From positions 1 through 41,235 of IMG/VR virus record IMGVR_UViG_3300049448_000045: a stretch of 41,235 bases of DNA, one strand, 5' to 3'. This document shows, one piece after another, positions 9,044 to 39,997 of the stretch. Each line of letters starts with the position of its first letter. Positions within the stretch are counted from its first letter, which is position 1. The notes below the pieces were generated by a model. That model saw nothing but the letters and a program-made list of their open reading frames with translations. It ran no database searches and was not told the origin of the DNA. This stretch comes from a virus. The translations under genes and the position numbers were made by a program.

Positions 9044-9072
9044 CCTTCCCCTTTCTCTAACTGGAGCCAACC

Positions 9073-10050: not shown

Positions 10051-10073
10051 TAAGCACCAGTTGGAGAAACACA

Positions 10074-10592: not shown

Positions 10593-10599
10593 CGGAGGC

Positions 10600-10630
10600 T
10601 GGGGAAGGTTTCTTACGGGAGCCTTCCCCA
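10600..10630 (+). terminator. Strong hairpin after the capsid/decoration genes
   Basis: TGGGGAAGG (10600-10608) is perfectly complementary to CCTTCCCCA (10622-10630) with a 13-nt loop. It starts eight bases after the decoration stop and ends 22 bases before the next ATG. There is no T-tract, so it may be a leaky terminator or a 3' stabiliser that sets capsid mRNA apart from the genes beyond. No other perfect nine-base stem of this kind was noticed among the rightward late genes. Confidence 0.5.
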
Positions 10631-10651
10631 CTCTCGCCACATGGGAAAACA

Positions 10652-12649
10652 ATGCTCCGGATTTGCTGCGTCAAGGTCAATTCTGCGTATGATGCAAGAT
10701 ATGTGAATGTCTTGTACGACTGCGTTACGCGCAATCTTGATGAAGGCACGGCTGGTGAATTTCACTGCTTCACGGATAACCCTGAGGGGCTGCATCCCAA
10801 CATCATAACGCACCCCGTTCCGTCCGAGTTCACGGGATGGTGGGCTAAACTGCATCTGTTCAAGGACGGTCATTTCGAGGACGGAGACAGAATTGTCTAC
10901 ATCGACCTCGATACGGTGATCTTCGGTCCGCTTGATGACATCGTGCGGTATAGCGGACACTTTGCTATCCTAAGAGACTTCTTCAAGCCTCATAACGATA
11001 TGCAGAGTGCCATCATGGCATGGCCCGCAAATACACAGCAGGCCATTTTGGACAAGTGGGTTGCGCTTGGCAGGCCAGAACTACAGGGCGGCGATCAGGA
11101 ATTGATCCAGATGTCCCTTGAGGAGCGCGGGATTGTTCCCGACTTCCTGCAAGACCTCTTTCCCGGCAAATTCGTCTCGTACAAGAGCGGCAGTTACAAG
11201 CGCGTGCCTCCGAGAGGGGCGAGTGTTGTCTGCTTCCACGGCCAGCCCAAGCCCCACAACTGCGGGTCTAGTTGGGTTGACGGCGTGTGGAAGATTGACG
11301 GCTCCATGGCATTTGAGATTGAGCAGTTCTGCAATACGGAAGATGCCAAGGTTGAGGCGAATATCAAATATGCCGTCTCCAAAGGCTTTCCGTGGCTCGC
11401 GCTCAAAGACGCGCATGAGAGAACGGCTGTAATCTGTGGCGGCGCTCCGTCGCTCAAGAACACATGGCGCGATATCTGGTCCTGCACGGACTTCGATGTG
11501 TTCGCCTGCAACAATACGGCTCGGTTTCTTGAGGAGCGCGGCATTGATGTTGCCTATCATGTCGTTGTCGATGCCCGTCCTGAGATCGTAGAGTTTATCC
11601 AGCCAACGGCTCCGAGGAAGGGTTATCTGCTCGGATCAATGTGCGATGTTGGCGTTTTCTTGGCCGTGAACAGCGGTGCTGTCACTGTTTTTCATCCCAA
11701 GGTAAAGGGCGTTGTCGAGTTAATCGAGAACGATCCGCGCGCCAAGTGTATTGTTGGTGGCGGCTCTACGGTCTGCCTCAAGGCAATCGCAATCGCCTAC
11801 ATCATGGGCTATCGGAAATTCCATCTGTTTGGCATGGATTCCAGCTATTCTGGAGACGAACATCACGCCTATCCGCAAAGCCTGAATAATGATGATCCAA
11901 TTGTTGAGGTTCAGGTTGACGATCAGTATTTCAAGACCTCTCCATGGATGGTCGCACAGGCTGACGAGTTTGATGACCTTGTGTGCGAACTTCTAACCCT
12001 CGGCTGCACGTTCGATATCTCAGGTGACGGTCTTATCCCCTATATCTGCCGCGACCGGGTTAATAGTACGAAGGTCTGCGCTGCCGATGAACGCGCTCAG
12101 GCTATTCTAAGCCGCCTTCCGAGAGGAGAAATCCGGGGCGCTGAGATAGGCGTCTTTGCTGGCGATCTATCGTCCCGCCTTCTGGCCCGTGAAGGATTGA
12201 ATCTCTCCATGATCGACTCATGGGCTCCGAATGGCGAGGATTACGCGCCGGGTTCGGATGACTTCCACGCTTCCCTGACATGGGACCAGCAAAGCAAGTT
12301 CATGCAGATGTCCATTCGCGCGACGGACTTTGCCAAAGACAGACGAACAATTATCGTCATGTCTTCCGAAGCGGCGGCGCAGAACTTCACCGATGGCATG
12401 TTGGACTTTGTGTTCATTGATGCCGATCATTCCTATGAGGGATGCAAGCGCGATATCGCTGCATGGTATCCGAAGCTCAAGGATGGAGCCCTGCTTAGTG
12501 GTCACGACTATGACCATCCTGAATACCCCTCATGGGGCGTGAAACGAGCCGTGGATGAGTTCGCCAAATCTCACGGGCTTAGTGTCGATTTTGGCGAGAA
12601 CATGACTTGGTTCATCAACAAACCGCTCGCGAAAGAAATCGCGGCTTAG
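10652..12649 (+). CDS. Three-domain glycosyltransferase / MptE-like / methyltransferase
   Basis: A 665-residue fusion. Residues about 1-225 look like a GT-A glycosyltransferase: MLRICCVKVN start, 'GWWAKLHLF' and the metal-binding DxD in RIVYIDLDTVIFGPLDD (D85, D87). Residues about 255-460 match the DUF115/MptE-like fold: 'TAVICGGAPSLKN', 'VFACNNTARFLEERGIDVAY', 'GGSTVCLKAIAIAY' and 'FHLFGMDSSYS'. Residues about 485-655 are a class I SAM methyltransferase of the Methyltransf_24 type: 'GAEIGVFAGDLSSRLL', 'LDFVFIDADHSYEGCKRDIA' and 'DGALLSGHDYDHP'. It sits inside the virion-assembly operon, so it may modify a virion or host-surface glycan; the substrate is unknown. All three active-site motifs look intact. 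Confidence 0.8.
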   Translation: MLRICCVKVNSAYDARYVNVLYDCVTRNLDEGTAGEFHCFTDNPEGLHPNIITHPVPSEFTGWWAKLHLFKDGHFEDGDRIVYIDLDTVIFGPLDDIVRYSGHFAILRDFFKPHNDMQSAIMAWPANTQQAILDKWVALGRPELQGGDQELIQMSLEERGIVPDFLQDLFPGKFVSYKSGSYKRVPPRGASVVCFHGQPKPHNCGSSWVDGVWKIDGSMAFEIEQFCNTEDAKVEANIKYAVSKGFPWLALKDAHERTAVICGGAPSLKNTWRDIWSCTDFDVFACNNTARFLEERGIDVAYHVVVDARPEIVEFIQPTAPRKGYLLGSMCDVGVFLAVNSGAVTVFHPKVKGVVELIENDPRAKCIVGGGSTVCLKAIAIAYIMGYRKFHLFGMDSSYSGDEHHAYPQSLNNDDPIVEVQVDDQYFKTSPWMVAQADEFDDLVCELLTLGCTFDISGDGLIPYICRDRVNSTKVCAADERAQAILSRLPRGEIRGAEIGVFAGDLSSRLLAREGLNLSMIDSWAPNGEDYAPGSDDFHASLTWDQQSKFMQMSIRATDFAKDRRTIIVMSSEAAAQNFTDGMLDFVFIDADHSYEGCKRDIAAWYPKLKDGALLSGHDYDHPEYPSWGVKRAVDEFAKSHGLSVDFGENMTWFINKPLAKEIAA

Positions 12650-12659
12650 GAGATTTACG

Positions 12660-13016
12660 ATGGCGACTAAAGGCGAAATTATGCGCGGCGGAATGCCAGC
12701 CGAAATTGCACAGCTTCTTGGCTTTGACTATGCCACAGGGTTGTCAGGCGCAGGTACAACGCAGGCAGATGCGACGGTTCTGACCGCAAATATGAATGTC
12801 TTTACCACTGTAGGGTCTAGCACTGGTGCCCTGCTTCCGTCAGCAACGGGAACTGCGCCTGCGGTGATTTACAATGGCGGCTCCAATGCCCTGACGGTCT
12901 ATCCGACCGGCACGCAGACGATCAACAATGGCGCTACGAGCTTTTCCGTTACGAATGCAAAGGCGGCGGTATTTTTCCCGCACGGCAATACTTGGATCGC
13001 TATCCTTAGCGCCTAA
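12660..13016 (+). CDS. Small structural-type protein (118 aa)
   Basis: ATG 12660 lies 10 nt after the fusion enzyme's stop, with an 'aggag' ribosome site. The product has 'GGMPAEIAQLLGFDYATGL' then a Gly/Thr/Ala/Asn-rich beta stretch ('GTAPAVIYNGGSNALTVYPT', 'TQTINNGATSFSVT'). This small beta-rich pattern resembles fragments of head-fibre or tail-fibre shafts. No cysteine, no charge clusters. Probably a virion component, family not recognised. Confidence 0.55.
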   Translation: MATKGEIMRGGMPAEIAQLLGFDYATGLSGAGTTQADATVLTANMNVFTTVGSSTGALLPSATGTAPAVIYNGGSNALTVYPTGTQTINNGATSFSVTNAKAAVFFPHGNTWIAILSA

Positions 13017-13027
13017 CAGGAGACTTC

Positions 13028-13906
13028 ATGTCTATCAAGGCAGATCAGTACAGCAGAGACTACCAGAATGTTGCCGACAGCAACGAGGACAAGGACACTT
13101 GCATTCCCCGCTTCTACATGGAAGCGGAGGAGTTCGAGGTTGACGGTTCTCCGCAATGGCGTGACCGTGAGATGGTGGAAGTCATCATTCCCGGCAATGC
13201 GAATACGCGCTTCGTCAAATATGTGGACGAGCATGTGAAGGCACGCTGGCCGAACGCTTATCGGGCATTCAAAGAGAACCAGTCTGCGCCCGTGATCGGC
13301 ACGCCGCTGGAACAGTGGGCGCGTCTCTCGCCTGCCATGGTGATGAAGCTCAAATCTACGGGCTTCAGAACTGTTGAGGACATTGCGCGTGTTGCCGATT
13401 ACAACCTTGGCTCTCTTGGCCTTGGGGGCATGAAGCTTCGTCTTTTGGCGCAGGCGTTCATCAACGATGCGGATCGCATGGCCGTCACGAACAAGGCGGT
13501 GGAAGATGCGATGCGTTTCGAGGCGCGCTGCAAGGAGCTTGAGTCTCAGGTCGAGGCGTCTAACTCTCAGTTCCGCCAGATGTTCGAGGAAATCAAGGCG
13601 CTGAAGATGAACCAGTCGGTTGCGCTTCAGAACCTTGGGTCTGCTCCTGCCATGCAGGGCCAGCCGGTTTATCAGCCGTCAATCCAGCCGCAGGCCCCGT
13701 CTTCGCCCTTTGCGTCTCTTATGAGCCCGGAGGAACAGGCGGCAGAACTTTCGCAGTTCAATCAGGCCGTATCTCGCCAGCCGTTGCCTGTTCATCAGCC
13801 AGCGCAAGCAACGCATGAGATGAGCGTCCCTGCGAACAAGCCGCGTCGTGGTCCAAAGACAAAGGCTGAAAAGGCAGCGATAGCAGCGGCACAGCAAGGA
13901 GCGTAG
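13028..13906 (+). CDS. Hypothetical virion-region protein with HhH-like segment
   Basis: A 292-residue protein. Residues 1-80 form a beta-rich globular part ('RFYMEAEEFEVDG', 'MVEVIIPGN'). Residues about 91-145 ('GTPLEQWARLSPAMVMKLKS' then 'GFRTVEDIARV') resemble a helix-hairpin-helix or SAP-like fold. A helical coil (155-195) and a Pro/Gln-rich tail ending in a basic patch (NKPRRGPKTKAEKA) follow. Similar proteins occur in podovirus structural operons without a known role. The layout suggests a nucleic-acid-binding or scaffold role; not proved. Confidence 0.6.
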   Translation: MSIKADQYSRDYQNVADSNEDKDTCIPRFYMEAEEFEVDGSPQWRDREMVEVIIPGNANTRFVKYVDEHVKARWPNAYRAFKENQSAPVIGTPLEQWARLSPAMVMKLKSTGFRTVEDIARVADYNLGSLGLGGMKLRLLAQAFINDADRMAVTNKAVEDAMRFEARCKELESQVEASNSQFRQMFEEIKALKMNQSVALQNLGSAPAMQGQPVYQPSIQPQAPSSPFASLMSPEEQAAELSQFNQAVSRQPLPVHQPAQATHEMSVPANKPRRGPKTKAEKAAIAAAQQGA

Positions 13907-13908
13907 GC

Positions 13909-14205
13909 ATGGCAACACTAACGGCTGACAAGCGCAATAATCTCTCTAAGAGCACCTTTGGCTTGCCGGGAGAGCGTAAGTATCCGATGCCCGATAAAGC
14001 GCACGCCGCGAACGCCAAGGCTCGCGCTTCTCAGCAGGAGGCGAAGGGTAATCTCTCGCCGTCTGCAAAGGCACAGATTGACGCGAAGGCCAACAAGGTT
14101 CTGGGTCATGGCGGGGATCGCAAGGGCACTAGCTACCACATGGCCAAGGCCGATCAGCACATTCAGAAAGCCTTGGAGAAACGCCTAGCATCGAAGGATA
14201 AGTAA
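13909..14205 (+). CDS. Small basic phage protein (98 aa)
   Basis: Ribosome site 'caaggag' precedes ATG 13909. The product begins MATLTADKRNNLSKSTFGLP, followed by 'RKYPMPDKAHAANAKARASQ', 'LSPSAKAQIDAKANKVLG'. This 'KRNxLxKSxFxxPGxRxYPxPDKxHAxNAxARA' signature is a widespread small phage/bacterial family of unknown function, often in structural operons. The stop TAA shares its last A with the next ATG, so the genes are coupled. Confidence 0.7.
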   Translation: MATLTADKRNNLSKSTFGLPGERKYPMPDKAHAANAKARASQQEAKGNLSPSAKAQIDAKANKVLGHGGDRKGTSYHMAKADQHIQKALEKRLASKDK

Positions 14206-14411
14206 TGGCTGAAGTTGTCCAACTGAAACTTGTTGAGGTTGGAGACGCCTTCGAAATTTCGCCTGATGTCATCTTGGAAAATAACAAGGGGAGATATCAG
14301 GAAGTCGTGGTTATCGGCTTTGGCGAAGATGGTGTAACGGTTGCAGGTTCGCATAGCTGCTCAAAAGCATTGTGGTTGATTGAAAAGGGCAAATTGGAGC
14401 TTCTGGGTTAA
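14205..14411 (+). CDS. Small hypothetical protein (68 aa)
   Basis: The ATG at 14205 overlaps the preceding TAA (TAATG), and its own TAA overlaps the ATG at 14411 in the same way. The product is a small beta-rich acidic protein (MAEVVQLKLVEVGDAFEISP...KGKLELLG). 'GFGEDGVTVAGSHSCSKALW' suggests a small barrel fold. No assignment possible; tight coupling supports translation. Confidence 0.6.
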   Translation: MAEVVQLKLVEVGDAFEISPDVILENNKGRYQEVVVIGFGEDGVTVAGSHSCSKALWLIEKGKLELLG

Positions 14412-14590
14412 TGCCAAGTCAGAGCAGTAAACAGCATAGGTTTTTCGAGATGGTCGCTCACGATCCTGCTGCTGCCAAGCGCGTTGGCGTGTCTCAGGCT
14501 GTTGGCCGCGAGTTCGTATTAGCCGATGTCGGGAAGCACTTTGCACCCTCGCAGCAATCCAAGCCTCAGAAGAAAGGTAAGAATCGGTGA
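14411..14590 (+). CDS. Small conserved phage protein (59 aa)
   Basis: TAATG overlap with the preceding stop and GTGA overlap with the next start. The product starts MPSQSSKQHRFFEMVAHDPA, followed by 'AKRVGVSQAVGREFVLADVG' and a basic tail. It belongs to a short family typified by 'MPSKSxxQHRxMxAVAHxPxFAKKVGIPQSVGxEF', common in phages and in some host genomes. Its function is unknown; it is often found near head or connector genes. Confidence 0.7.
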   Translation: MPSQSSKQHRFFEMVAHDPAAAKRVGVSQAVGREFVLADVGKHFAPSQQSKPQKKGKNR

Positions 14591-14775
14591 CTGATACGCA
14601 GGAGATTGGCCTAAATATCGCCAGAAACTTACTAGTCCTCAAGTGGCAAAGTGCCAGTATCAACCCTAAGCCTTGGGATCATAATTTTATGACAAAAAGA
14701 AATCCTGATACCGAGATGGTCCCAAGTCTGGTTCTGGCGATAAATGCTATAGATTCAGTCCTTAAAGGAGAATAA
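14587..14775 (+). CDS. Small hypothetical protein (62 aa)
   Basis: GTG 14587 overlaps the previous stop (GTGA). The product is a soluble, mainly helical protein (MTDTQEIGLNIARNLLVLKW ... LVLAINAIDSVLKGE). It ends at 14775, immediately before the ATG of the connector gene at 14776, and its last codons (aaaggag) form that gene's ribosome site. No family recognised. Confidence 0.5.
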   Translation: MTDTQEIGLNIARNLLVLKWQSASINPKPWDHNFMTKRNPDTEMVPSLVLAINAIDSVLKGE

Positions 14776-15729
14776 ATGAGTCTCCTTACGATCTGCCAAT
14801 CCGCAGCCCGCATCATCAAGATTGAGGTTCCTTCGTCCATTGTGAACAACACGGGCGAGGAGGCTCAGTTATTGCTTCAGTGTGCGCAGTTTGAGGGTAT
14901 GGCGCTGTCCCGCCGTCCTCAGGGCGGATGGGTAAACAGCATCCTTGAGAAGCAGTTTAACACCGTCTCTCTTGGCCCCTTCAGCGGTACGGTTGCCAAC
15001 ACGGGTTCGGGAGGCAGAGCGCAGATCACGGGGCTTAGTTCTACCGCTGGCATTACTGCGCTGCTGTTCGGTGTGGCAGGCAATGGCATTATCTACAACT
15101 CTGTTGTGGCGAGCGTCGATGGCCCATTCGGCGTGACGCTCAATCTTCCTGCATCCACGACAGGGCCTGCGACCGATATTGTATTCGGGCAATTTGCCTA
15201 CGCTGTGCCGTCCGATTTTCAGCGGCCTATCGACAATACGATGTGGGATAGAACGCGGTACTGGCCGATGGCTGGCCCTCTGAGCCCGCAACAGCAGCAG
15301 TTCTTCAAGTCGAGCATCTTCTGTCAGGCAACGATTCAGAGGCGCTTCTGGTTTCAGAAGATCGGCAACGCTACATATTTCATCGTCAATCCGCTTCCGA
15401 CAGACAACAATTCCCAGCTTGCGTACAACTATGTCTCAAATGCGTGGTGCCAGTCGTCAGCGAACGCACCGCAGACGCAATGGCTGGCCGATACGGACAC
15501 TGGCATCCTAGACGAATACCTGATGACATTGGGTGTGACGTGGCGTGCGCTGGATCGCCTTGGCGTCGATTATTCCTCTGCCCTCGATGACTACGTTAGA
15601 GAGGTCGATAAGGCTGTTGCGCAGGATGGCGGCGCGGCTACACTAAGTCTGGTTCCAACTGTGGGGCCGTTCCTCTTGAGCCCGACAACTTCCGTGAGTG
15701 AAGGATCGTGGCCTAGCACGCCGGTATAA
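14776..15729 (+). CDS. Head-tail connector, P22 gp4-like adaptor
   Basis: A 317-residue protein starting MSLLTICQSAARIIKIEVPS, with a perfect AAAGGAG ribosome site. The start 'MSLLTICQxAAxxIGIxxPSS' and 'LLLQCAQFEGMALSRR' are typical of podovirus tail-accessory/adaptor proteins that dock under the portal. A low-complexity beta insert (about 65-145) precedes 'YAVPSDFQRPIDNTMWDRTR' (about 138-157) and a helical C-terminus ending DDYVREVDKAVAQDGG. It would close the portal channel after packaging. Position between small head genes and the gp10-like gene fits. Confidence 0.75.
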   Translation: MSLLTICQSAARIIKIEVPSSIVNNTGEEAQLLLQCAQFEGMALSRRPQGGWVNSILEKQFNTVSLGPFSGTVANTGSGGRAQITGLSSTAGITALLFGVAGNGIIYNSVVASVDGPFGVTLNLPASTTGPATDIVFGQFAYAVPSDFQRPIDNTMWDRTRYWPMAGPLSPQQQQFFKSSIFCQATIQRRFWFQKIGNATYFIVNPLPTDNNSQLAYNYVSNAWCQSSANAPQTQWLADTDTGILDEYLMTLGVTWRALDRLGVDYSSALDDYVREVDKAVAQDGGAATLSLVPTVGPFLLSPTTSVSEGSWPSTPV

Positions 15730-15731
15730 TC

Positions 15732-17258
15732 ATGGTCGCAGCCCAGCCTATGGGAGCCAGAATACAGCGAGCGTCCCAGCCCAAAGTCGCGCCTCAAATC
15801 ATTCCCGTTTCCATCTCAGGATGGAACACGCGCGATGCTGTTACGGCCATGGACCCGACAGACGCAATTATTCTGGACAACTGGTATCCCGATTATGGGG
15901 GCCTGACTGTTCGCCAAGGCTCAAAGGTTTTCTGCACGGGATTAGGCCCCGGATTTGTGAATACGCTTGCGGAATATAGCGCAGGCGCACATCTCCAGTT
16001 CCTCGCGGCCCGTGGCAACGCTATTTACAACATCACGTCAGGGACGGCGGTAAAGCTCCACGGCGGGTATGCGTCGGACGTGTGGCAAACGGCTAACTTC
16101 AATGGCCGCATTTTCTTTGTGAACGGCGTAGACGAGCCCCAATCCTATGACGGCACTACGCTGGGAGATGCTGGATTTACGGGAACGACCACAAGCGAGA
16201 TTATCGGCGTTGAGGTATTCAAGCAGAGATTATTCTTCTGGCGGAAGGATTCGCAGAGTTTCTGGTATGCAACCCTCAATGCGATTACCGGGGCACTCGT
16301 TGAGTATCCTCTAAGCGGGTTTGCCAAGACGGGCGGAAACGTCATTGCCTGCACGACCATCTCACACGATGGCGGCGAGGGCATCTCAGACCTTATCGTG
16401 TTCATTCTCTCGACGGGTGAGACGATCATCTTTCAGGGCACGGACCCTGAGTTCGCGGATTCGTGGCAGGTTTATGGGCGCTATCATATCTCGCCTCCCG
16501 TTTCGCCGCGTGCGGTCGCGAAGTATAGCGCGGATGCGTACCTGACTACTTCCTCTGACTATGTGCCGCTTCAACAGCAGCTTGTCGCTTTGAAGGTCGG
16601 TCAGGTTCCTCCTCGTTCCAAAGCCTCTGGTGCTGTTTCTCAAGCCGTTGCAGCAAACCAGAACAGCTACGGATGGCAGACGATCTTCTATCCAAAGGGA
16701 CAGAGGCTGATTTTCAATGTGCCGAATCCAGACGGTACGTTCGATCAGCATATCTTCAACACTCAACAGAACGCCTATTGCCGTTTCACGGGAAACAATG
16801 GCGCGTCTTGGTGCGTGTTCAACTCTAACCTCTACTACGGAGGCGCGAGCGGCATTGTCTATCAGGCAGATGTAAATAATACTGACAGCGGGACCGCCAT
16901 TTCCTTCGATGGTCAGTGTGCATGGCAGGACTTTGGCGATCCGAGGCGCAAGCGTCTTTCTGCGGTACGGCCCACCTTCAGCACGCTAGGCGTGGCCACA
17001 ATCAATTTCGGGACGGGCTTTGATTATGAGACGGTGCCGCTGACAACGCACACGTCTACGCTGGCAGTAGCCGGTTCGCCTTGGGATATCTCTCCTTGGG
17101 ATACATCGCCATGGTCGCCTGAGACGGGCATAGATATCCGCTGGAGGCTCGCGGGAGGTACGGGAACATCAATGAGCTACCGTGTCCAAGGCTCCTGTCA
17201 GAGCCAGCTTCAATGGCTTAGAACCGATGTCCGCTATGAAGGTAGCAAGGACATTTAG
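15732..17258 (+). CDS. P22 gp10-like tail hub / DNA stabilisation protein
   Basis: A 508-residue protein beginning MVAAQPMGARIQRASQPKVA. Markers of the podovirus gp10-like hub family are 'ISGWNTRDAVTAMDPTDAII' (about 28-47), 'LDNWYPDYGGLTVRQGSKVF', and repeated beta-propeller-like blades such as 'NGRIFFVNGVDEPQSYDGTT' and 'VFKQRLFFWRKDSQSFWYAT'. It probably binds the connector at 14776 and the tail fibres. Its stop shares a base with the GTG of the GNAT gene at 17258. Full length, intact. Confidence 0.75.
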   Translation: MVAAQPMGARIQRASQPKVAPQIIPVSISGWNTRDAVTAMDPTDAIILDNWYPDYGGLTVRQGSKVFCTGLGPGFVNTLAEYSAGAHLQFLAARGNAIYNITSGTAVKLHGGYASDVWQTANFNGRIFFVNGVDEPQSYDGTTLGDAGFTGTTTSEIIGVEVFKQRLFFWRKDSQSFWYATLNAITGALVEYPLSGFAKTGGNVIACTTISHDGGEGISDLIVFILSTGETIIFQGTDPEFADSWQVYGRYHISPPVSPRAVAKYSADAYLTTSSDYVPLQQQLVALKVGQVPPRSKASGAVSQAVAANQNSYGWQTIFYPKGQRLIFNVPNPDGTFDQHIFNTQQNAYCRFTGNNGASWCVFNSNLYYGGASGIVYQADVNNTDSGTAISFDGQCAWQDFGDPRRKRLSAVRPTFSTLGVATINFGTGFDYETVPLTTHTSTLAVAGSPWDISPWDTSPWSPETGIDIRWRLAGGTGTSMSYRVQGSCQSQLQWLRTDVRYEGSKDI

Positions 17259-17701
17259 TGGCGAAACTCGTTATTGATGAAACCGAGGCGGTCGCACGAT
17301 GGGTGGGCGCTCAGGTTAGTCCTCTCATAGAGGATTTTGGGCCGTGCGTGAGCATCGGAGTAGCTTCGAAGGATGGGAAACTGCTCGCTGGAGCAGTCTA
17401 CAATGACTGGACGCCTCCGAATATCCAGATCACGTTTGCGGTTGGCGATAAAAGATGGGCGTCGAGGGCCGCAATCGCTTGTATTTTGTCCTATCCTTTC
17501 GTACAACTTGGATGCTTGCGTATTACGGCTGTAACTGCCGTAGGCAATGATCGGGCCAGAGCCTTTCTGACGAACCCTCTAATCGGGTTCAAGCAAGAAG
17601 GATATCACCCCAACTGGTTTCCTGATTCAGACGCCGTTTCATACGGCCTTCTCAGGAAAGACTGTCAGTGGGTGAATCTCGATGGGCAAAGGTGCCCCTA
17701 G
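17258..17701 (+). CDS. GNAT-family acetyltransferase
   Basis: A 147-residue protein with a GTG start overlapping the previous stop. It has the abbreviated phage GNAT layout: 'VSIGVASKDGKLLAGAVYND' (beta strands), 'QITFAVGDKRWASRAAIACI' (acetyl-CoA-binding turn and helix), 'LRITAVTAVGNDRARAFLTN' and 'LIGFKQEGYHPN', ending in a beta strand. Phages often keep such a gene within the tail/neck operon. The acceptor is unknown; a virion or host protein is plausible. Its 3' end overlaps the next gene by 20 nt. Confidence 0.75.
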   Translation: MAKLVIDETEAVARWVGAQVSPLIEDFGPCVSIGVASKDGKLLAGAVYNDWTPPNIQITFAVGDKRWASRAAIACILSYPFVQLGCLRITAVTAVGNDRARAFLTNPLIGFKQEGYHPNWFPDSDAVSYGLLRKDCQWVNLDGQRCP

Positions 17702-33026: not shown

Positions 33027-33542
33027 ATGCGTAGATATAAAGAACTTCTCAAACCTGAGACTCTTAGATCACTTCTCTCTTACGATCCAGAAAGTGGTGA
33101 TTTTAAGTGGATAGAAAAGAGATTTAATGGAGCCGATTCTGGACAAAGCGCAGGCTCTATAAACCGATACGGATATCGGAGGATTTGCGTTTTTGGGTCT
33201 TATTATACCGCCCACAGGCTTGCATGGTTATTACACTATGGCGTTGAACCTAAGGGCTCTCTAGATCACATAAACGGCGTTCGATCTGATAACCGTATAG
33301 CCAATCTTAGAGAGGCAACTAATTCTCAAAATGGCTACAACATGTCTCTTTCATCTGCCAGCAAGTCTGGGGTGAAAGGCGTTAGATTTTACTGCAGAGC
33401 TGGCAGAAAAGATAAATGGTCTGCGAGAATCATGGTTCAAGGAGAGTCTATATTCTTAGGCTTATTTGATACTCTTGAAGAAGCAAAATCTGCGAGATTA
33501 TGCGCCGCTGAAAAATATCATGGAGAATTTGCGAGGCCGTAA
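33027..33542 (+). CDS. HNH homing endonuclease with AP2 domain
   Basis: A 171-residue protein. 'AHRLAWLLHYG' (about 62-72) and 'LDHINGVRSDNRIANLREAT' (79-98) form the HNH/NUMOD4-like catalytic core, with H63 and the D80-H81-N83 cluster. Residues about 112-168 ('SGVKGVRFYCRAGRKDKWSA', 'FLGLFDTLEEAKSARLCAAE') are an AP2 DNA-binding domain. Such free-standing genes spread into phage genomes by cutting intronless or geneless alleles. The coding DNA looks more A/T-rich than its neighbours (by eye), a sign of transfer. It interrupts the stretch between the membrane-protein genes and the endolysin. Confidence 0.85.
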   Translation: MRRYKELLKPETLRSLLSYDPESGDFKWIEKRFNGADSGQSAGSINRYGYRRICVFGSYYTAHRLAWLLHYGVEPKGSLDHINGVRSDNRIANLREATNSQNGYNMSLSSASKSGVKGVRFYCRAGRKDKWSARIMVQGESIFLGLFDTLEEAKSARLCAAEKYHGEFARP

Positions 33543-33586: not shown

Positions 33587-34102
33587 ATGAATTGGCCGAC
33601 TACCGATGCTGATTTAATCCGGCAGGTCATCCTCTACAATGAGGGCGGCTATGTGAACAATCCGGCAGACAAAGGCGGCCCAACTCACTACGGGATTACC
33701 CAAGATACGCTCGCATCATGGCGCGGCCACCCCGTCACGGTCGATGACGTAAAGAATCTCCCGATGGCCGAGGCTATCTCAATCTACGAGAAGCGTTACA
33801 TCGTAGACCCGAACTTCATCCTCATATCCGATATAAAGTTGCGCACAGCCCTTGTAGATGCTGCCGTGCTGTTTGGCCCTCAGACTGTAATCAAGGCTCT
33901 ACAGGGCATTCTAGGGGTCAAGGCGGACGGTGTTCTTGGAAACGATACTGCGGCAGCGGCGGGACGGCTTGAAGCAAGGGGGCTAATCAATTCCCTCTCT
34001 GTCTGGCGAGTTACGCGCCATGCTTCAAGAGTAGACGCGGACCATTCCCAGATAGTGTTCTTGAAGGGCTGGATGGCTAGGGCGACGAGCTTTATTGTCT
34101 AA
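33587..34102 (+). CDS. Endolysin, GH108-type muramidase
   Basis: A 171-residue protein. Residues 14-37 (VILYNEGGYVNNPADKGGPT then HYGIT) carry the GH108/zliS signature E-G-G-Y-x-N-x-x-D-x-G-G-x-T-x-x-G-I-T with catalytic Glu19. The C-terminal part ('ALVDAAVLFGPQTVIKALQG' through 'VWRVTRHASR') matches the PG_binding_3 region of the same family. It cleaves the glycan strands of peptidoglycan; there is no signal peptide, so it needs a holin or pinholin. Its stop overlaps by four bases with the convergent small membrane gene of the minus-strand module. Confidence 0.85.
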   Translation: MNWPTTDADLIRQVILYNEGGYVNNPADKGGPTHYGITQDTLASWRGHPVTVDDVKNLPMAEAISIYEKRYIVDPNFILISDIKLRTALVDAAVLFGPQTVIKALQGILGVKADGVLGNDTAAAAGRLEARGLINSLSVWRVTRHASRVDADHSQIVFLKGWMARATSFIV

Positions 34103-34305
34103 GAGCAAAGCCCGCGACCGTGAAACCCAAGCCACTCACCTCCACCGCCCGTCAGAATACTGATTAGGACGACACAGACGACAATAGCAAAGACAACCCT
34201 GATGACCCAAGAAAACGGCTCAGGAACGGGCACTTGCTGGATGGCCCACCATACAATCGCGAGGATCAACCCCGCGACAAGAAGCGTAATCAAGATGCTG
34301 AGCAT
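34099..34305 (-). CDS. Small two-TM membrane protein, end of minus-strand module
   Basis: The frame has an ATG at 34311, but AAGGGG at 34318-34313 is correctly spaced (7 nt) only for the ATG two codons later at 34305. The 68-residue product has two transmembrane helices ('LSILITLLVAGLILAIVWWA' and 'SWVIRVVFAIVVCVVLISIL') and ends in a Gly-rich tail. It resembles the 'Thivi_2564' family of small membrane proteins of unknown function. It is the last gene of the leftward operon, 53 nt beyond the ATPase, and converges on the endolysin, so a holin role is an alternative. Confidence 0.65.
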   Translation of the reverse strand: MLSILITLLVAGLILAIVWWAIQQVPVPEPFSWVIRVVFAIVVCVVLISILTGGGGEWLGFHGRGLCS

Positions 34306-34358
34306 ATCCATTCCCCTTTAGTATCTCAGAGAGAACGGGGTGTGGGGTGGAAAGTTCC

Positions 34359-35186
34359 CTAAAGTGTCGGGAACAGAGACTTAATCTCGTTTACTGTCGG
34401 GATAAACGCAACCATGTGCTCCACGTCTTTATGCCACGCCAGATCGCGCTCAATCAGGTCAATCGTCTGTTGAATACGAGCCCCCCGAACAGGATTACCG
34501 TGTACGTCCTTGTCGCGGCCTAGAAGAAGGATTGTATCCGCGATCATAACGGCGCTCTCAATGTCATGCGTCGAGAAGATGATGGTGTTTAGCTCGTCTC
34601 TGGCCGCTACGTTGTCGATCATATCGCAGACGACTTTCTTCATGATGATGTCAAGCCCTGAAAATGGCTCGTCCATGAGCAGGAAGTGGCTGCTGGATAG
34701 TAGCTGCTCTGCGATGGATACACGCTGTCGCTGGCCACCGGAAAGCTGCTGAGGATAGAAATGGCGCTTGTCGGCCAGTCCGAAGTCGCTCAAGACCTGA
34801 TAGGCTTTGGCCTTCGCTTTTGCGGCGTCCTTTTCTTGCCGTCCTGCCGCTAGTAAGAGCGTGCTTTCAATCGTGCGATGCTCAAAGAGAAGGTAATTCT
34901 GAGGGACAACGCCGACCATACCAGCTTTGACCGGCTTCTGATCTGGACCGATTGCGACTGTTCCCGATGTTGGCGCGGAGAGTCCAGATAGCCTGCGGAA
35001 TAACTGAGTCTTTCCCATTCCGCTTGGTGCCAGAAGCGCCACCTTTTGGCCTTGTGTCAGTCCAGTACGCTTAATATCCCGTATCTCAAAACTCACATCA
35101 TGCAGGATCGGGAAATCGTATGAGACGGAAAGACCCGTAACCTTGAGCAGCAATTCGTCTTTTACATATTGGAACTCGGACGACAT
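34359..35186 (-). CDS. ABC transporter ATP-binding protein
   Basis: ATG 35186 shares a base with the permease stop; the frame is open upstream (to 35219) only inside the permease gene. All ABC ATPase motifs are present in 275 residues: Walker A 'LLAPSGMGKTQL' (51-62, first Gly replaced by Ala), Q-loop 'VVPQNYLLF' (93-101), signature LSGGQRQR (148-155), Walker B 'HFLLMDEPF' (167-175), D-loop 'SGLD' and H-loop 'IFSTHD' (203-208). The type is the NitT/TauT import family, in keeping with the neighbouring permease. It would power the transport system encoded by this operon from the cytoplasm. Confidence 0.9.
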   Translation of the reverse strand: MSSEFQYVKDELLLKVTGLSVSYDFPILHDVSFEIRDIKRTGLTQGQKVALLAPSGMGKTQLFRRLSGLSAPTSGTVAIGPDQKPVKAGMVGVVPQNYLLFEHRTIESTLLLAAGRQEKDAAKAKAKAYQVLSDFGLADKRHFYPQQLSGGQRQRVSIAEQLLSSSHFLLMDEPFSGLDIIMKKVVCDMIDNVAARDELNTIIFSTHDIESAVMIADTILLLGRDKDVHGNPVRGARIQQTIDLIERDLAWHKDVEHMVAFIPTVNEIKSLFPTL

Positions 35187-35959
35187 TAGAGAGCCTTTCC
35201 AAGTCTTGCGTATGGACAAGCGATGTAGTTCTTGAACGCGCCGAGCAGGAAGTCTTGCAGCATACCAACGGCAAATAGGGAAATCAGGATTGCCGCCTCT
35301 GCGGAGAGGTCCATGTGACGGTTCATGTTGATTAGGACAACGCCTATCCCTCCTTCCGAGCGCACAACGCCTTCAACCATCGTAAGCATCATCCAGCCCA
35401 TGGCTGCGTTGACGCGGAGAGATTCCAAGGCATCCGCGAGAGTGCCCAGAATAACCACTTCCCAGATGACACGGAACTGAGAAAGGCCAAGTGTGCGGGC
35501 ATGATCGTACTGTTCTTCCGGGATATTGCGGACGACATGAATCATATCGCGGAGATAAAACACCGTCATTCCGAACGTGAGAACCATAACCTTGAGGGCA
35601 TGGCCTGTTGGAGCGAGCAAGGTGAACGCCAGCATCAACCCGACTAGGCCCAAGTATCGAAGCCCTGTAATGAATTGAACCAGAGGGCGCATTGCTGGAA
35701 GTACAGACAGATAAGCGAGAAACAGCGAGAGTGCGACGGTCCACAAGATGGATTCCGCCATGGTTTCTAGGCTTGTTCCAAACTCTAGGAACGTGCCTTG
35801 CTGTCTAAGTGTCTCGAATGAGGAAAGAACCTCCATCGGCTTTGGCAGGAATTGAATGTCTGAGAATTGCCAGAATAGGAAGGCGGCAACGCCCCATGCC
35901 AGAGAGATATACAATCTTCCTTGGCGTGAAACGTTGCCGTTGGGGAGAAGTGCGTTCAT
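35186..35959 (-). CDS. ABC transporter permease (NitT/TauT-like)
   Basis: A 257-residue inner-membrane protein with about six hydrophobic helices ('YISLAWGVAAFLFWQF', 'ILWTVALSLFLAYLSVLP', 'LGLVGLMLAFTLLAP', 'ALKVMVLTFGMTVFYL', 'AAMGWMMLTMVEG', 'AILISLFAVGMLQDFLLGAF'). Residues about 149-181 ('EEQYDHARTLGLSQFRVIWE' onward) are the EAA loop that docks with the ATPase. The BPD_transp_1 fold and order are typical of taurine/nitrate/thiamine-precursor importers. ATGA overlap with the 50-residue peptide gene upstream (35956-35959) and a one-base overlap with the ATPase downstream. No partner permease, so a homodimer is likely. Confidence 0.85.
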   Translation of the reverse strand: MNALLPNGNVSRQGRLYISLAWGVAAFLFWQFSDIQFLPKPMEVLSSFETLRQQGTFLEFGTSLETMAESILWTVALSLFLAYLSVLPAMRPLVQFITGLRYLGLVGLMLAFTLLAPTGHALKVMVLTFGMTVFYLRDMIHVVRNIPEEQYDHARTLGLSQFRVIWEVVILGTLADALESLRVNAAMGWMMLTMVEGVVRSEGGIGVVLINMNRHMDLSAEAAILISLFAVGMLQDFLLGAFKNYIACPYARLGKAL

Positions 35960-36110: not shown

Positions 36111-36305
36111 CTATCTCCAGAGTTCACGATTGAAGACAGCCTTGAAGCCATCATTCATGGCCTTTGCCATCTTCTCCATCTCCTCCGCAATCTTGTCGCG
36201 ATTGTCTTTGGACGGCCACACAGTCTTTTTGGGAGTTTCCGTTGTCTGCGTTTGGAGCGCGATGTGTTCTCCGCAATGCGGACATTCGATCAGAGATTCT
36301 TTCAT
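36111..36305 (-). CDS. CPHC-type small protein (64 aa)
   Basis: Starts MKESLIECPHCGEHIALQTQ. Cys8 and Cys11 form one CPHC pair (a second pair is missing, so a zinc site would need a dimer or His14). The rest is a charged amphipathic helix ('SKDNRDKIAEEMEKMAKAMN'). Located two bases ahead of the one-TM peptide and five after the OmpA-fusion gene, so it is part of the operon. The CPHC could alternatively be a redox motif, as in thioredoxin-like proteins, but the fold is absent. Confidence 0.6.
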   Translation of the reverse strand: MKESLIECPHCGEHIALQTQTTETPKKTVWPSKDNRDKIAEEMEKMAKAMNDGFKAVFNRELWR

Positions 36306-36314
36306 GGCTTTCTC

Positions 36315-38084
36315 CTATTGACCAAGGGTGATTTCGACACGGCGATTCTGCGCCTTGCACGCCGCCGTATCATTCGAGGCGCACACGGGCATATCCTGAC
36401 CATGGCCGACAATTTCAAGGCGGGAGGCAGGGAAGTTTGCGGGTGCCTTTGATGTCAGCCAGTTTGCCACCGCCGCTGCACGCTGTTGAGAGAGCGCAAC
36501 ATTGGCCTGTGGGTTGCCAGTATTATCCGTATACCCATCGAGACGAAGGCGCAGATTTGTCATAACCGCTGTGTCCTCAATCTGCGTAAGAACGGCAATC
36601 GAGGATGCCTTGACCGTGGCGCTGCCAGAATTGAACTCAATATGCCATGCGCGCTTCGATACTGTCTGCGTAATTGGGGCCGCAGAGGCGTATTGCGGAG
36701 CCGCCACACCCTGAGCTTCAGGAACGCCCTGTAGTGCATCGGTTAGGTAAGACAGGTCCACAACGTCATCATAGGCCGGGATAGAGCCGCTACCTGACTT
36801 GGGGTAGTCAGTCGGGTAGAATGCCTCGTCATAGCCTTTGAACACACGGTAGACGGAGGCAAAGATGTTCTCTGTTCCTGAGCGGATGCCGAAGTAATCG
36901 CGCGCCTCTTGTAGCGTGATTACTTTTGACCCTCCAAGAGAGACTTCTTCGCCAAGGCGGTTATGCCCGATTTCGCCCTTGAAGTAACGAGCCCAATAGG
37001 AAGCGTCCTGTTCATGGAAAATCTGGGCATGGATGCCGCCCATATCCATGAGAGCCGCGCTGCTGGTACGGATCAGGATTGCGCCACGATCTGCAGCCTT
37101 CAGAAGCCCGACAACATAGTCATGGTGAGACTGCATCCAGCTTTTGACGCCGATAATCAGTGTCGGCATCTGACCTGCATAATCATGCGTAGAAGCAACA
37201 CCGACAATAGAGCCGTCGAACTTGCTAACCACGTCTACGTCGCCCGGTGTCCATGTCGCTACACCGTTGACACAGACCTTCTTTGTGCCGTGCGTAATAC
37301 CGTGAGACACGACTAGGCGGTCTTCGCAGGCGTGAGAGATAAGTTTCTCGTCAGCCGTGGTGAATGCGTCAACGTCCATGAAGTTGATGGCGTCTGCATC
37401 GTAGGTTTTCTGATCGGTATTGATTGGAATACCGTTGTCCGATGCCCACTTGACACAGATGTTCCAGTCACCGTCACGGGGAACGGCAGCTACAAGAACG
37501 CCCTTGGCCTTCTTCGGGTCTTTCTGTGCATCGGATGGCATCATGCACTTGTCCTCACCATCGGAAAACCCGATCACGCCGATAGCGGCGAACTGACCCG
37601 GAATTAGCTTCTGGAGGGCCGCTGCCACATAGGGGTATCCATCCCCCATGATGGTAAAGAAAGCGTCTCCACGGGCACCGTTGGACGTTACGAACGCGGC
37701 CATATTGGCTTCCATCTGCCCGTAGTCATCCTGACGCTTGATCGTTAGGCATCCGTTGCCAGTGTACTTCTCGACAAGCGAGCCGCGAGACGTGGAAGAC
37801 CCGCCGTTGGCGATGGTGAGCCCACCATGCGCGTTCCACGCCAGAACTTCCATAACCGGACAGTCAGTCATGTTCGCAGGCTGAGCGGTGACGGGAAGTG
37901 GGTATGCCGTGGTGTGATCTGCCACGGTAAAATGCTGGATGGTTGTGGCGACTGGAACCGCAGAGACAGTCTGAGCGGGTTTTCCGATCAGGCCGGTCAT
38001 AACTGCCAGCTTGGCCCCTCCCCATAGAACGCCGACACCTACCACGGCGATAACTGCAAATCCTGCGCGCGTAATCTTGGCCAT
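36315..38084 (-). CDS. Substrate-binding protein fused to OmpA domain
   Basis: A 589-residue envelope protein with a good ribosome site (gaggagag). Residues about 7-32 ('AGFAVIAVVGVGVLWGGAKL') are a signal or membrane anchor. The middle (about 75-450) looks like a periplasmic type-2 substrate-binding protein of the NitT/TauT or phosphate kind ('WNAHGGLTIANGGSSTSRGS', 'MDVDAFTTADEKLISHACED', 'DVVSKFDGSIVGVASTHDYA'). Residues 480-589 are a complete OmpA-like peptidoglycan-binding domain: 'WHIEFNSGSATVKASS', 'LDGYTDNTGNPQANVALSQQ', 'VGHGQ' and 'NRRVEITLG'. It would hold the binding protein on the cell wall while feeding the permease. Cysteines in the exported part suggest disulfides. Confidence 0.85.
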   Translation of the reverse strand: MAKITRAGFAVIAVVGVGVLWGGAKLAVMTGLIGKPAQTVSAVPVATTIQHFTVADHTTAYPLPVTAQPANMTDCPVMEVLAWNAHGGLTIANGGSSTSRGSLVEKYTGNGCLTIKRQDDYGQMEANMAAFVTSNGARGDAFFTIMGDGYPYVAAALQKLIPGQFAAIGVIGFSDGEDKCMMPSDAQKDPKKAKGVLVAAVPRDGDWNICVKWASDNGIPINTDQKTYDADAINFMDVDAFTTADEKLISHACEDRLVVSHGITHGTKKVCVNGVATWTPGDVDVVSKFDGSIVGVASTHDYAGQMPTLIIGVKSWMQSHHDYVVGLLKAADRGAILIRTSSAALMDMGGIHAQIFHEQDASYWARYFKGEIGHNRLGEEVSLGGSKVITLQEARDYFGIRSGTENIFASVYRVFKGYDEAFYPTDYPKSGSGSIPAYDDVVDLSYLTDALQGVPEAQGVAAPQYASAAPITQTVSKRAWHIEFNSGSATVKASSIAVLTQIEDTAVMTNLRLRLDGYTDNTGNPQANVALSQQRAAAVANWLTSKAPANFPASRLEIVGHGQDMPVCASNDTAACKAQNRRVEITLGQ

Positions 38085-38101: not shown

Positions 38102-39130
38102 TTAATGGATCAGGCCGGACAAAACATTTGCCGGGTCTGGTTGACTGGTGGACGCAAACGAAGCGGGCGAAGGCAAAGCCGTTGCCTGCGTAGACTGGAT
38201 AAGCTTCGTGCCTGTCGTCTGGACCTGTTGAAGCATGTCCTCATTGAAAGAGGCGTTCTCCACGTCGATGGATTGCAGGAACGGCTCTGCGAATTTCTTG
38301 AGGTGATCCAGATGGCCAAGCTCCGCGCCGTACTTATCATCAATGACGGACTCTGCCTGTTCTGCATCGGCCCATACTTGGGTCTTGGTACGGCCAAGGA
38401 TGCGGCTTGCGGAACCTACCGCTGCATTAACCGCCTTCTGCGTCTCCCATTTATCCTTGAGAAGATCGCGCTCGATTTCCAGTTTCTGCGCCGTGATGTC
38501 TGCCGCTTGCGAGATTTTCTGGAATGTCGCGCGTGCAGGTTCAAGGCGTGCGGCTGTGGCATCATAGGAAGCCGCAATATCCTTGTACGATCCGAACTTG
38601 TGAGCCGCAACGTCCTGCGCGCCAGTCGCGCCAGTCTTGGCAGCAGCAATGCCGAACCTTTGAGCTTTCAGGCTGGCATCGCGATACTTTGCAGCCTTGT
38701 CGTGCAAGCTGGAAATAAGGCCGTCTAGCTTCTCGAATTGTGCCTCGAATGTCACCTGATCGGCGCGCACTGAATTGATGCGCGTTGTGATCGGAGAAAG
38801 AGGGTCAATCGTGATAAAGAACCTTGTGAGGCCGTTGACGATTGACCAATACGGCAGGCGCAGAAGATGGTTGATACTGCCGTTTGCGCTAAGCGTCTCG
38901 CGTGCCAGCCACAAAGCGACGACCAAGCCAACGCCGGAAGCGACGGTATAGATGCTGTTTTCCAAGATGGTGTTGAGCAGGGTTAGTGCCGTAACCATCG
39001 TGGGTGCGACCGCATTGAAAGCGATGACAGCGCCGAGGATGATTGCAGCGCCGCCACCATATTTGACGACTTTCTGCATGACCTGAGATTCAGGCGGTGT
39101 CCATGGCTGAGAGACAAGATCGTTCGACAT
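38102..39130 (-). CDS. Two-TM coiled-coil membrane protein (342 aa)
   Basis: Residues about 25-52 ('GGGAAIILGAVIAFNAVAPT' and on) and 58-77 ('NSIYTVASGVGLVVALWLAR') are transmembrane helices. From about 115 to 250 it is a long cytoplasmic alpha-helical region ('TRINSVRADQVTFEAQFEKL', 'ATFQKISQAADITAQKLEIE', 'RDLLKDKWETQKAVNAAVGS') consistent with a coiled coil; the C-terminus is Gln/Thr/Ser-rich. It is the third gene of the leftward operon. No family is recognised; it may connect the transporter to the cytoplasmic coiled-coil protein encoded just before it. Confidence 0.65.
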   Translation of the reverse strand: MSNDLVSQPWTPPESQVMQKVVKYGGGAAIILGAVIAFNAVAPTMVTALTLLNTILENSIYTVASGVGLVVALWLARETLSANGSINHLLRLPYWSIVNGLTRFFITIDPLSPITTRINSVRADQVTFEAQFEKLDGLISSLHDKAAKYRDASLKAQRFGIAAAKTGATGAQDVAAHKFGSYKDIAASYDATAARLEPARATFQKISQAADITAQKLEIERDLLKDKWETQKAVNAAVGSASRILGRTKTQVWADAEQAESVIDDKYGAELGHLDHLKKFAEPFLQSIDVENASFNEDMLQQVQTTGTKLIQSTQATALPSPASFASTSQPDPANVLSGLIH

Positions 39131-39139
39131 GATTAGCCC

Positions 39140-39763
39140 TTATGAGATTGAGGAAAGGAGTTGTTTAGCCTGTAGAAGCGGGGCGCTTAGCTGATCTTCA
39201 ATGAGTTTGAAGCGGGCAGAACCATCGCTAATAGCCTTCTCTGCATCGTGGGCCGCTTGCGTTAGTTGCGAGATGCGGGCCGTGCGTTCTGCGATCTGCT
39301 GCTGTGCCGCTACGTTCTGCGCCGTGAGATTGGCCATCTCTTGCGTAGGCCCGTCAATGCGTGCCGCCCGCGCTTGTCCTAGCTGACCATCAAATTCAGA
39401 CTTCTTGGAAGCGATGATGCTAAGATGCGCGTCAATGTCGGCCAGCACTTTCTCAGCCGTCACGCCGGGATTGGCAGCGGCCAGAACATTGAACACGGTC
39501 TTGAGGTCTGAGGTATTGCCAAGAGTCTCGCGAACGCGCTGGAATGTTTTGTAGCTTGACGGGATAGCGTACACTTGCGCTTCCAAAGCCTTGAGACGTT
39601 CTGTATCTTCTGGGCCAAGGGTAGTAGTCGTGTAATTGGCGGCGGGTGTGTATGCAGGCATCGGAGGAACATCAACGCCGGGATGCATGTTCCGAACGAC
39701 TGGCTCTTGGCTCGCAACTGGATCGTCGCTTTCCATAAGGCCCATTTTTTGTAGAAGGCTCAT
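39140..39763 (-). CDS. Soluble coiled-coil protein (207 aa)
   Basis: Starts MSLLQKMGLMESDDPVASQE. The first 60 residues are Pro/Thr-rich and disordered. Residues about 60-200 are predicted helical ('EDTERLKALEAQVYAIPSSY', 'AEKVLADIDAHLSIIASKKS', 'ERTARISQLTQAAHDAEKAI'). Its start overlaps the stop of the ribbon-helix-helix gene (ATGA, 39760-39763). It has no membrane helix and may assemble with the 342-residue membrane protein next to it. PspA-like or TelA-like helical proteins come to mind, but no signature supports either. Confidence 0.65.
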   Translation of the reverse strand: MSLLQKMGLMESDDPVASQEPVVRNMHPGVDVPPMPAYTPAANYTTTTLGPEDTERLKALEAQVYAIPSSYKTFQRVRETLGNTSDLKTVFNVLAAANPGVTAEKVLADIDAHLSIIASKKSEFDGQLGQARAARIDGPTQEMANLTAQNVAAQQQIAERTARISQLTQAAHDAEKAISDGSARFKLIEDQLSAPLLQAKQLLSSIS

Positions 39764-39939
39764 TTCGCTGATGCCGCCTCGGAAACAATCTTCATGGCTT
39801 CCTTGAGAAGCTGCGCGCGGCCCCAGACTGAGGGGGGGAGGCCAAGAAGCCTTGCGGCTTTGTCAATCGTGGCGCGGTCCTTCTTGCCTAGAGCAATGGA
39901 TAGGCCCGTGGTTTTCTTGTCCGCAGATTTATTGACCAT
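39760..39939 (-). CDS. Ribbon-helix-helix regulator (59 aa), first gene of module
   Basis: The frame is open from 39981, but ATG 39939 follows AGGA (39950-39947) at 7 nt, and the upstream part overlaps the candidate promoter. The product begins MVNKSADKKTTGLSIALGKK and goes on 'DRATIDKAARLLGLPPSVWG' then a basic helix. Strand-helix-helix with 'TTGLSIALGKKDRATIDKAA' fits ribbon-helix-helix repressors. It heads the operon and sits beside a TGTGA-N5-TCACA dyad at 39956-39970, so autoregulation of the transport operon is likely. Confidence 0.65.
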   Translation of the reverse strand: MVNKSADKKTTGLSIALGKKDRATIDKAARLLGLPPSVWGRAQLLKEAMKIVSEAASAK

Positions 39940-39952
39940 GCGTTCGTATCCT

Positions 39953-39973
39953 ATATGTGACCGTATCACACAT
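39953..39973 (-). promoter_or_regulatory. Candidate operator dyad
   Basis: TGTGA (39956-39960), five bases, TCACA (39966-39970): a perfect 5-base inverted repeat, extended imperfectly to ATATGTGA/TCACACAT. It overlaps the candidate -10 region of the leftward promoter, the position expected for a repressor. Two direct copies of AATGGCAC (39974-39981 and 39984-39991), ten bases apart, lie next to it and could be half-sites for a ribbon-helix-helix dimer. Confidence 0.45.
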
Positions 39974-39997
39974 AATGGCACGGAATGGCACTGTCAA
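39969..39997 (-). promoter_or_regulatory. Candidate promoter of the minus-strand module
   Basis: Reading leftward: TTGACA (complement of 39992-39997, perfect consensus), 17-nt spacer, TATGTG (complement of 39969-39974, 3 of 6). The predicted start is near 39962, about 23 nt before the ATG at 39939. The weak -10 inside the operator dyad suits a regulated promoter. Confidence 0.45.

Follow-up and report, generated by a model that had tools for sequence, protein, structure and literature searches.

Bacterial operons that combine a PspA/transmembrane (TM)-Snf7 gene with an ATP-binding cassette (ABC) ATPase, a permease and a protein joining PBPB and OmpA domains, such as OGG56892.1, are described in the main text of Ravi et al. 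(mSystems 2024, PMC11237479), and the accessible text of a 2025 preprint mentions, for Jug phages, a pspA-like gene adjacent to terD (PMC12363816). Here we analyzed a related five-gene cassette in a viral DNA stretch of 41,235 nucleotides (IMG/VR virus record IMGVR_UViG_3300049448_000045; this whole stretch is called the window), which encodes a substrate-binding protein (SBP) fused to an OmpA domain, hereafter SBP-OmpA. An earlier note on this DNA had set the fusion apart from importer binding proteins, which are normally free or lipid-anchored. The fusion is not unique: phages and bacteria share a family of such proteins, and the published bacterial 'PBPB and OmpA' operon removes the novelty of both the fusion and the bacterial arrangement. 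The main text of Ravi et al. contains none of the words phages, bacteriophage and virus, and one legend, to a heat map of PSP homologues, lists viral lineages. We found no description of the phage cassette in full-text searches of the open PMC library or in the main texts of five papers. The main texts of PMC7162821 (on huge phages), PMC6784885 and PMC8346664 (on Lak phages) do not contain 'OmpA', and 'transporter' occurs in them once, for a magnesium transporter.

The explanation that we favor, and to which we give slightly less than an even chance, is that the cassette encodes a wall-fixed importer of the NitT/TauT type that works with a PspA-like membrane protein and a coiled-coil protein in upholding the envelope of the infected cell. 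In this reading, the phage encodes a complete ABC importer of the NitT/TauT type, and SBP-OmpA supplies its binding subunit. With its N-terminal anchor at the inner membrane and its OmpA domain on the wall, it would fix the transporter and would itself not be lost; among the roles that the earlier note had suggested, this fixing of the transporter comes closest, whereas nothing was found in favor of a role in marking the wall. The SBP would dock on the permease while the OmpA tail grips the wall, and would pass a small solute to the permease, with uptake powered by the ATPase, as in other members of the family. The PspA/ESCRT-III-like protein p342 and the coiled coil p207 might build a sub-membrane scaffold at the importer site, and the net effect would be to sustain the supply and the integrity of the inner membrane over a long infection. 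The importer part of this reading is supported because the folds of both SBP-OmpA domains, the SBP signatures of relatives, the ATPase and permease signatures and the conserved gene order all point to it.

The SBP-OmpA protein and the importer genes

The cassette consists of five co-directional genes, p207, p342, SBP-OmpA as the third, permease and ATPase, with short gaps or overlaps between them, save for a 64-residue open reading frame (ORF) ahead of the permease. SBP-OmpA is encoded on the minus strand at 36315..38084, in an intact frame (38084->36315) with an ATG start and the purine-rich GAGGAGAG directly 5' of it. The 589-residue product comprises a predicted anchor (6-29), an SBP domain (72-447, reaching to about 460) and an OmpA domain (475-589). 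We modeled it with AlphaFold2 (AF2) from a 50-row alignment, at a mean predicted local distance difference test score (pLDDT) of 88.9. A helix at residues 6-29 of the model and a hydropathy maximum at about 6-30 agree with the N-terminal membrane segment proposed earlier. In a VIA comparison of this model, residues 72-447 were matched to solved type II SBPs, with Z scores of 27.2 over 290 residues for TauA (6ssy), 25.6 for CmpA (2i48), 24.6 for NrtA (2g29) and 23.0 for SsuA (2x26), while residues 475-589 matched the peptidoglycan-binding domain of TagL (5m38) at Z 18.6 and a root-mean-square deviation (rmsd) of 1.2 over 112. As modeled, the central part is a TauA/NrtA/CmpA-type (type II) substrate-binding domain with two lobes and a cleft. 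A Foldseek search of the model listed matches of both the SBP and the OmpA type; its two leading rows, a TssL fusion construct with rmsd >24, were set aside.

OmpA was the sole Pfam match of the protein (PF00691, residues 484-573, E 2.8e-14, 53.7 bits against a cut-off of 27.2). Motif position places its wall-binding pair at D520 and R535; in AbOmpA, Asp271 and Arg286 hold diaminopimelate, according to the accessible text of PMC12108004. The SBP fold and the complete OmpA domain with its Asp and Arg, both read from the sequence in the earlier note, were thus borne out, and neither outcome named there as refuting them, a different central fold without a pocket or a loss of the Asp/Arg pair, appeared. 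Among aligned relatives, counted as 80 distinct rows once the four repeats of a larger alignment had been removed, 77 have D520 and 79 have R535. The OmpA tail is present in 79 of the 80, the sole miss (L003) ending at a contig edge; one further locus (L018) lacks the N-terminus, its contig beginning inside the gene. Because SBP and OmpA are joined in 79 of 80 distinct rows, a chance fusion is excluded; a one-off fusion was ruled out by the recurrence of the same fusion across a family. The window protein had no Pfam NMT1 or NMT1_2 match. Such signatures are found in relatives, above cut-off in a Lak protein (NMT1_2, 35.9 bits > 24.7) and in L040 (NMT1, 28.8 > 20.5), and are weaker elsewhere, below cut-off in L012 and L095 (NMT1, 17.9 bits in the latter) and missing in L008 and L075. 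Among the 50 matches listed in a BFVD fold search, we noticed no viral model with the entire SBP-OmpA architecture.

Columns invariant across the SBP-OmpA alignment numbered 75 in its first six rows and 27 in 50 rows. All 80 distinct rows have Gly176 and Asp178, and 78 of them have Trp278. In alignment columns read by eye, Asp178 corresponds to TauA Glu106 and Trp278 to TauA Trp176; the accessible text of PMC6906117 reports that TauA Glu106Ala does not bind taurine and that Trp176 touches the bound ligand. The conserved Asp178 and Trp278 may be taken as a hint at an amine-bearing ligand, and as nothing beyond that. A ligand assignment based on TauA was dropped, the alignment being too weak beyond the hinge Asp and the Trp.

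The permease gene (35186..35959, minus strand, 257 residues) has an EAA-like loop at residue 152 and a BPD_transp_1 match (PF00528, E 5.7e-6) only barely above cut-off, at 26.6 against 26.4 bits. Its NCBIfam matches were partial and all far under their cut-offs, SaoP, SsuC and NtrB being the best types. The ATPase gene (34359..35219, minus strand, 286 residues) matched PF00005 at E 2.3e-24 and 87 bits, against a cut-off of 25, and encodes Walker A APSGMGKT (64), LSGGQ (159), Walker B LLMDEP (180) and STHD (216); its Walker A starts with A in place of G. By these sequence signatures, the two genes fit a type I (binding-protein-dependent, BPD) ABC importer. The link to an importer suggested earlier is supported by the adjoining ABC permease and ATPase; the earlier note did not mention the helical partner genes.

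Conservation and spread of the cassette

A first viral scan yielded four SBP-OmpA loci and a viral profile scan 49, these four included, with 12 of the 49 on contigs >= 200 kb. The bacterial profile scan gave 27 loci from 88 candidate stretches, which is an undercount because the scan depends on two short patterns. Among annotated phages, tblastn with the window protein returned 26 records: LR756500 (462 kb) covered 90% of the query, nine Lak-B phages matched over 48% of it, and 16 matched via the OmpA part only. The Lak SBP as query returned 21 records, namely 15 Lak phages (540-552 kb), the 735-kb phage twice (LR756501/503), phage G twice, LR756511 (595 kb) and MT835556 (a 38-kb fragment). 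The phage G protein found 25 loci in viral contigs, phage G itself among them, and a viral scan with the protein of the 735-kb phage alone gave five candidate stretches and no relative.

Gene order was determined by profile for 86 loci, of which 66 had room, that is, at least 2.4 kb before and at least 2.5 kb after the SBP gene; L003, L043 and L068, whose SBP frame runs off the contig, and the repeats L001, L006, L034, L035, L037, L038, L084 and L085 had been left out before the 86 were tabulated. The order p207-p342-SBP-permease-ATPase was observed in 63 of the 66 (22/22 bacterial and 41/44 viral loci), or in 57 of 60 when identical SBPs were counted once, and is kept at about 30-45% identity. 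Its carriers include a Lak megaphage, the 735-kb phage and the 462-kb phage; only phage G, the 595-kb phage and the 38-kb fragment depart from this order. Five larger bacterial regions, from genomes whose first loci had been too short for the table, showed the same order (5/5).

In the phage G type, the blocks are swapped, giving permease, ATPase, the helical gp246, the membrane helical gp247 and SBP-OmpA. This order was present in all 25 loci found with the phage G query. Many of these loci are near-copies, and in L118 and L135 gp246 stayed under the threshold. GenBank notes on phage G read 'ABC-like transporter permease', 'ABC transporter' and 'OmpA/MotB domain'. Position and weak matches weakly suggest that gp246 is the counterpart of p207 and gp247 that of p342; for the former link, p207 matched a protein of the 38-kb fragment at E 0.011. 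At 8824-12029 of the phage G locus (L093), two SBP-OmpA genes, gp249 and gp250, stand in tandem and are about 47% identical. The 595-kb phage (L095, LR756511.1) has what we read as an enlarged cassette at 8863-17425. It comprises three SBP-like proteins, two of which bear OmpA-like tails while the third has a lipoprotein-like start, along with two helical ORFs, a VWA protein, a permease and an ATPase; its helical ORFs matched none of the cassette queries. Lak-B1 (L083) has, about 1.1 kb past the cassette, another ABC-ATPase-like stretch, which is partial (13247-13594).

The window encodes TerL, a portal protein and a major head protein, which bears out the phage setting. Among 29 records, its TerL matched just one, the 156-kb contig G807, so that the idea of the window as a piece of a huge phage is unsupported. 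Of 51 carrier records, 14, the window and Lak among them, have Terminase_6N above its cut-off, as do 9 of 18 phage-G-type contigs; cassettes of the latter type also occur on 67-144 kb contigs, possibly partial genomes, with a terminase above cut-off. Bacterial carriage is sparse, at 8/395 Bacteroidota and 1/398 Pseudomonadota genomes (the centre genome counted in each), and the flanks of eleven bacterial loci look unrelated by eye, apart from shared downstream genes in L106 and L107. In these two loci, from related bacterial genomes, ORF starts suggest response-regulator-like and sensor-like genes after the cassette (L106 11129-14418, L107 11506-15834). In L108, permease and ATPase are separated by a transposase-like ORF.

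The tree, built by a quick method, comprises 79 rows, 34 of them bacterial and 45 taken from viral records, and has long branches; L095 and L096 missed the inclusion cut. Five rows, all from viral records and including the window, form a starred clade. The virus/bacterium label changes seven times on the tree, against a shuffled mean of 25.9, and at least six of these changes are forced by starred branches; therefore, transfers between viruses and bacteria occurred.

The helical partners and the competing explanations

The first two genes of the cassette, upstream of SBP-OmpA, encode the helical partners: p342 (38102..39130, minus strand, 342 residues) is a predicted membrane-anchored helical protein whose likeness to PspA/ESCRT-III comes via relatives only, and p207 (39140..39763, minus strand, 207 residues) is a predicted soluble coiled-coil protein with no predicted TM segment. 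Three bacterial proteins, which the p342 profile picks up at E 2e-19 to 4e-21, match PspA_IM30: L089 at E 4.2e-8 (33.5 bits), L090 at 7e-7 (29.5 bits) and L091 at 2.2e-7 (31.2 bits). L036 matches at E 0.0028. The partners of the phage G type match at E <= 0.01 in 14 of 17 cases, and that of L096 (MT835556) lies above the cut-off (42.4 against 33.9 bits, E 7.8e-11). When the p342 type was compared with the phage-G-type partner by hhalign, the probability was 87.6% and E 3.5e-6 over 62 columns. Fold comparison of p342 gave Z scores of 9-11 overall. We call p342 PspA-like through its relatives and do not assign it to the PspA family, because the window protein and the 31 aligned relatives lack the signature and further members score under the cut-off. 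LMBR1 was the best Pfam family for p342 relatives (5 of 31 members, best E 2.1e-5), which we take for a likeness of membrane segment and coiled coil; partners of the XpaC/TelA type, also considered, were absent from the Pfam matches.

Several observations weigh against the explanation that we favor. The window p342 has no Pfam match of any kind, and PspA is listed for none of the 31 aligned relatives (A4). L089, L090 and L091 all score under the PspA_IM30 cut-off of 33.9 bits and are close kin, and of ten further p342 members six lack a match at E 0.01 while the four that have one stay below the cut-off. No PspA match was obtained for gp247 of phage G itself, and the hhalign probability fell to 39% with two rows. 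Run on the phage-G-type partners, the p342 profile gave a best E of 0.0048 and a next of 0.11, the best of 1020 shuffles being 0.13; it thus barely separates these partners from shuffles, which weakens both the link between the two types and the favored explanation. The structural model of p342 has a moderate pLDDT of 72, and BAR domains (Z 11) match its hairpin as well as VIPP1 (7o3w, 10.4), PspA (4whe, 10.1) and ESCRT-III (10-11) do. Profile searches of the PDB with the helical partners returned no PspA chain for A4 and none at E 0.1 for A9; for A6, an unrelated lectin chain (E 0.00059) ranked ahead of the PspA/Vipp1 chains (0.012-0.042). On the importer side, the EAA-loop pattern matched 30 of 60 permeases, TauA Asp205 is not conserved in the SBP-OmpA family (columns read by eye), and the wall-binding Asp is missing from both phage G copies of the OmpA domain. 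The SBP-OmpA profile (A7) matched five of nine very large phage records, all five already known as carriers, and had no match in LR756502 (642 kb), LR756504 (636 kb), LR756508 (484 kb) and Atu_ph07 (490 kb). With these four records negative and smaller contigs positive, a cassette confined to huge phages, or universal in them, was ruled out.

The cassette could instead be a plain nutrient importer, an auxiliary metabolic module by which the phage raises uptake of a limiting solute (taurine-, nitrate- or thiamine-like), with the anchor and the helical partners merely positional. All importer parts are present, the ATPase motifs are intact and the SBP has a TauA/NrtA/CmpA-type fold, but two helical partner genes accompany the importer in 63 of 66 loci, and no common catabolic gene was recognized by eye in the bacterial ORF lists, whose flanks were not profile-scanned. 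To our knowledge, ordinary NitT/TauT-type importers do not have two helical partner genes alongside. We consider such a role unlikely, while ranking it first among the alternatives.

The ABC complex might also be a sensor, gated by the wall and by solute, through which the PspA-like protein is driven with little net transport, its purpose being to hold the membrane potential, to time lysis or to block superinfecting phages. The wall-binding domain and the PspA-like partner speak for such a device, as does, in the window, a GH108 endolysin gene on which the cassette converges; the cassette there is oriented opposite to the structural genes. In addition, the accessible text of PMC7162821 states that predicted membrane or surface proteins encoded by huge phages may influence how other phages infect. 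The presence of the cassette in bacterial genomes as well and the intact ATPase motifs count against it, and we rate this reading as somewhat less likely than the plain importer. Lastly, a recent or decaying acquisition from the host, without function for the phage, would fit the transfers seen on the tree and is disfavored as very improbable in view of the five open frames in the window, the order kept despite low identity and the clustering of the virus/bacterium labels.

The explanation by a wall-fixed importer with a PspA-like partner can be extended to a broader proposal, which we put forward only tentatively and regard as doubtful: that unrelated lineages of very large phages, with Gram-negative and Gram-positive hosts, keep one envelope takeover machine made of an ESCRT-III/PspA-like protein, a wall-anchored SBP and an ABC importer. 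If so, the machine would repair or energize the host inner membrane, and perhaps exclude rivals, in long infections, and the rare bacterial copies would be part of the same mobile module. The occurrence of the five-gene set in Lak megaphages, the 735-kb phage and many metagenomic phages, and of a similar set in phage G, would point to something that these phages need from the host envelope. Many genes of large phages remain unexplained, and the cassette would link phage biology with membrane maintenance by PspA/ESCRT-III. Bench testing is possible because phage G has been isolated and its genes are named.

Neighboring genes and comparison with known systems

Three small ORFs adjoin the cassette genes, all on the minus strand. 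One of 73 residues (39760..39981) overlaps the start of p207 and matches L002 (59%) and L003 (51%), with no match in the other three of five loci compared; it might be a small regulator of the cassette in the lineage of the window. A zinc-ribbon-like ORF of 64 residues (36111..36305), with weak Pfam matches only, lies between SBP-OmpA and permease, and a hydrophobic ORF of 70 residues (34099..34311) follows the ATPase; membership in the cassette is unsupported for both, and neither had a match in the five compared loci at E 0.01. Promoter and terminator predictions numbered 5 and 8, against shuffle means of 4.6 and 6.1, and were set aside. Elsewhere in the window, the plus strand encodes a 665-residue protein (10652-12649) whose N-terminal part matches phrog_1962 (phage glycosyltransferase) and whose C-terminal part matches phrog_2675 (DNA methyltransferase), and a 171-residue ORF (33027-33542), homing-endonuclease-like by its sequence, which adjoins the endolysin gene.

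Bacillus phage G resembles the window in having permease, ATPase, two helical proteins and SBP-OmpA in one block (gp243-gp250), and differs in its swapped block order, its doubled SBP-OmpA and the lost wall-binding Asp. TagL/TssL, MotB/PomB and ZorB share with SBP-OmpA an N-terminal anchor and a C-terminal OmpA domain, whereas in SBP-OmpA the domain in between is an SBP, neighbor to an ABC importer, rather than a stator or secretion part. ZorB profiles match residues 512-586 of SBP-OmpA; a Zorya-like system was set aside, these matches lying in the common OmpA domain. With TauABC, SsuABC, NrtABCD and CmpABCD (NitT/TauT type), the cassette has in common the SBP fold (Z 23-27) and the class of permease and ATPase; unlike them, it has an SBP with its own membrane anchor and an OmpA tail, as well as two helical partner genes. 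Ravi et al. name an AAA+ ATPase as part of their operons, and none was recognized by eye in the ORF lists of the cassette, for which no AAA+ profile search was made. ABC ATPase, permease and PBP-OmpA protein occur together in 63 of 66 loci; the TM-bearing PspA/Snf7-like fourth member rests on relatives, with the shuffle test of the p342 profile against it. As far as the main text of PMC11237479 describes it, the bacterial operon is similar to the cassette in make-up, the SBP-OmpA fusion included, and in the division of labor suggested for its parts.
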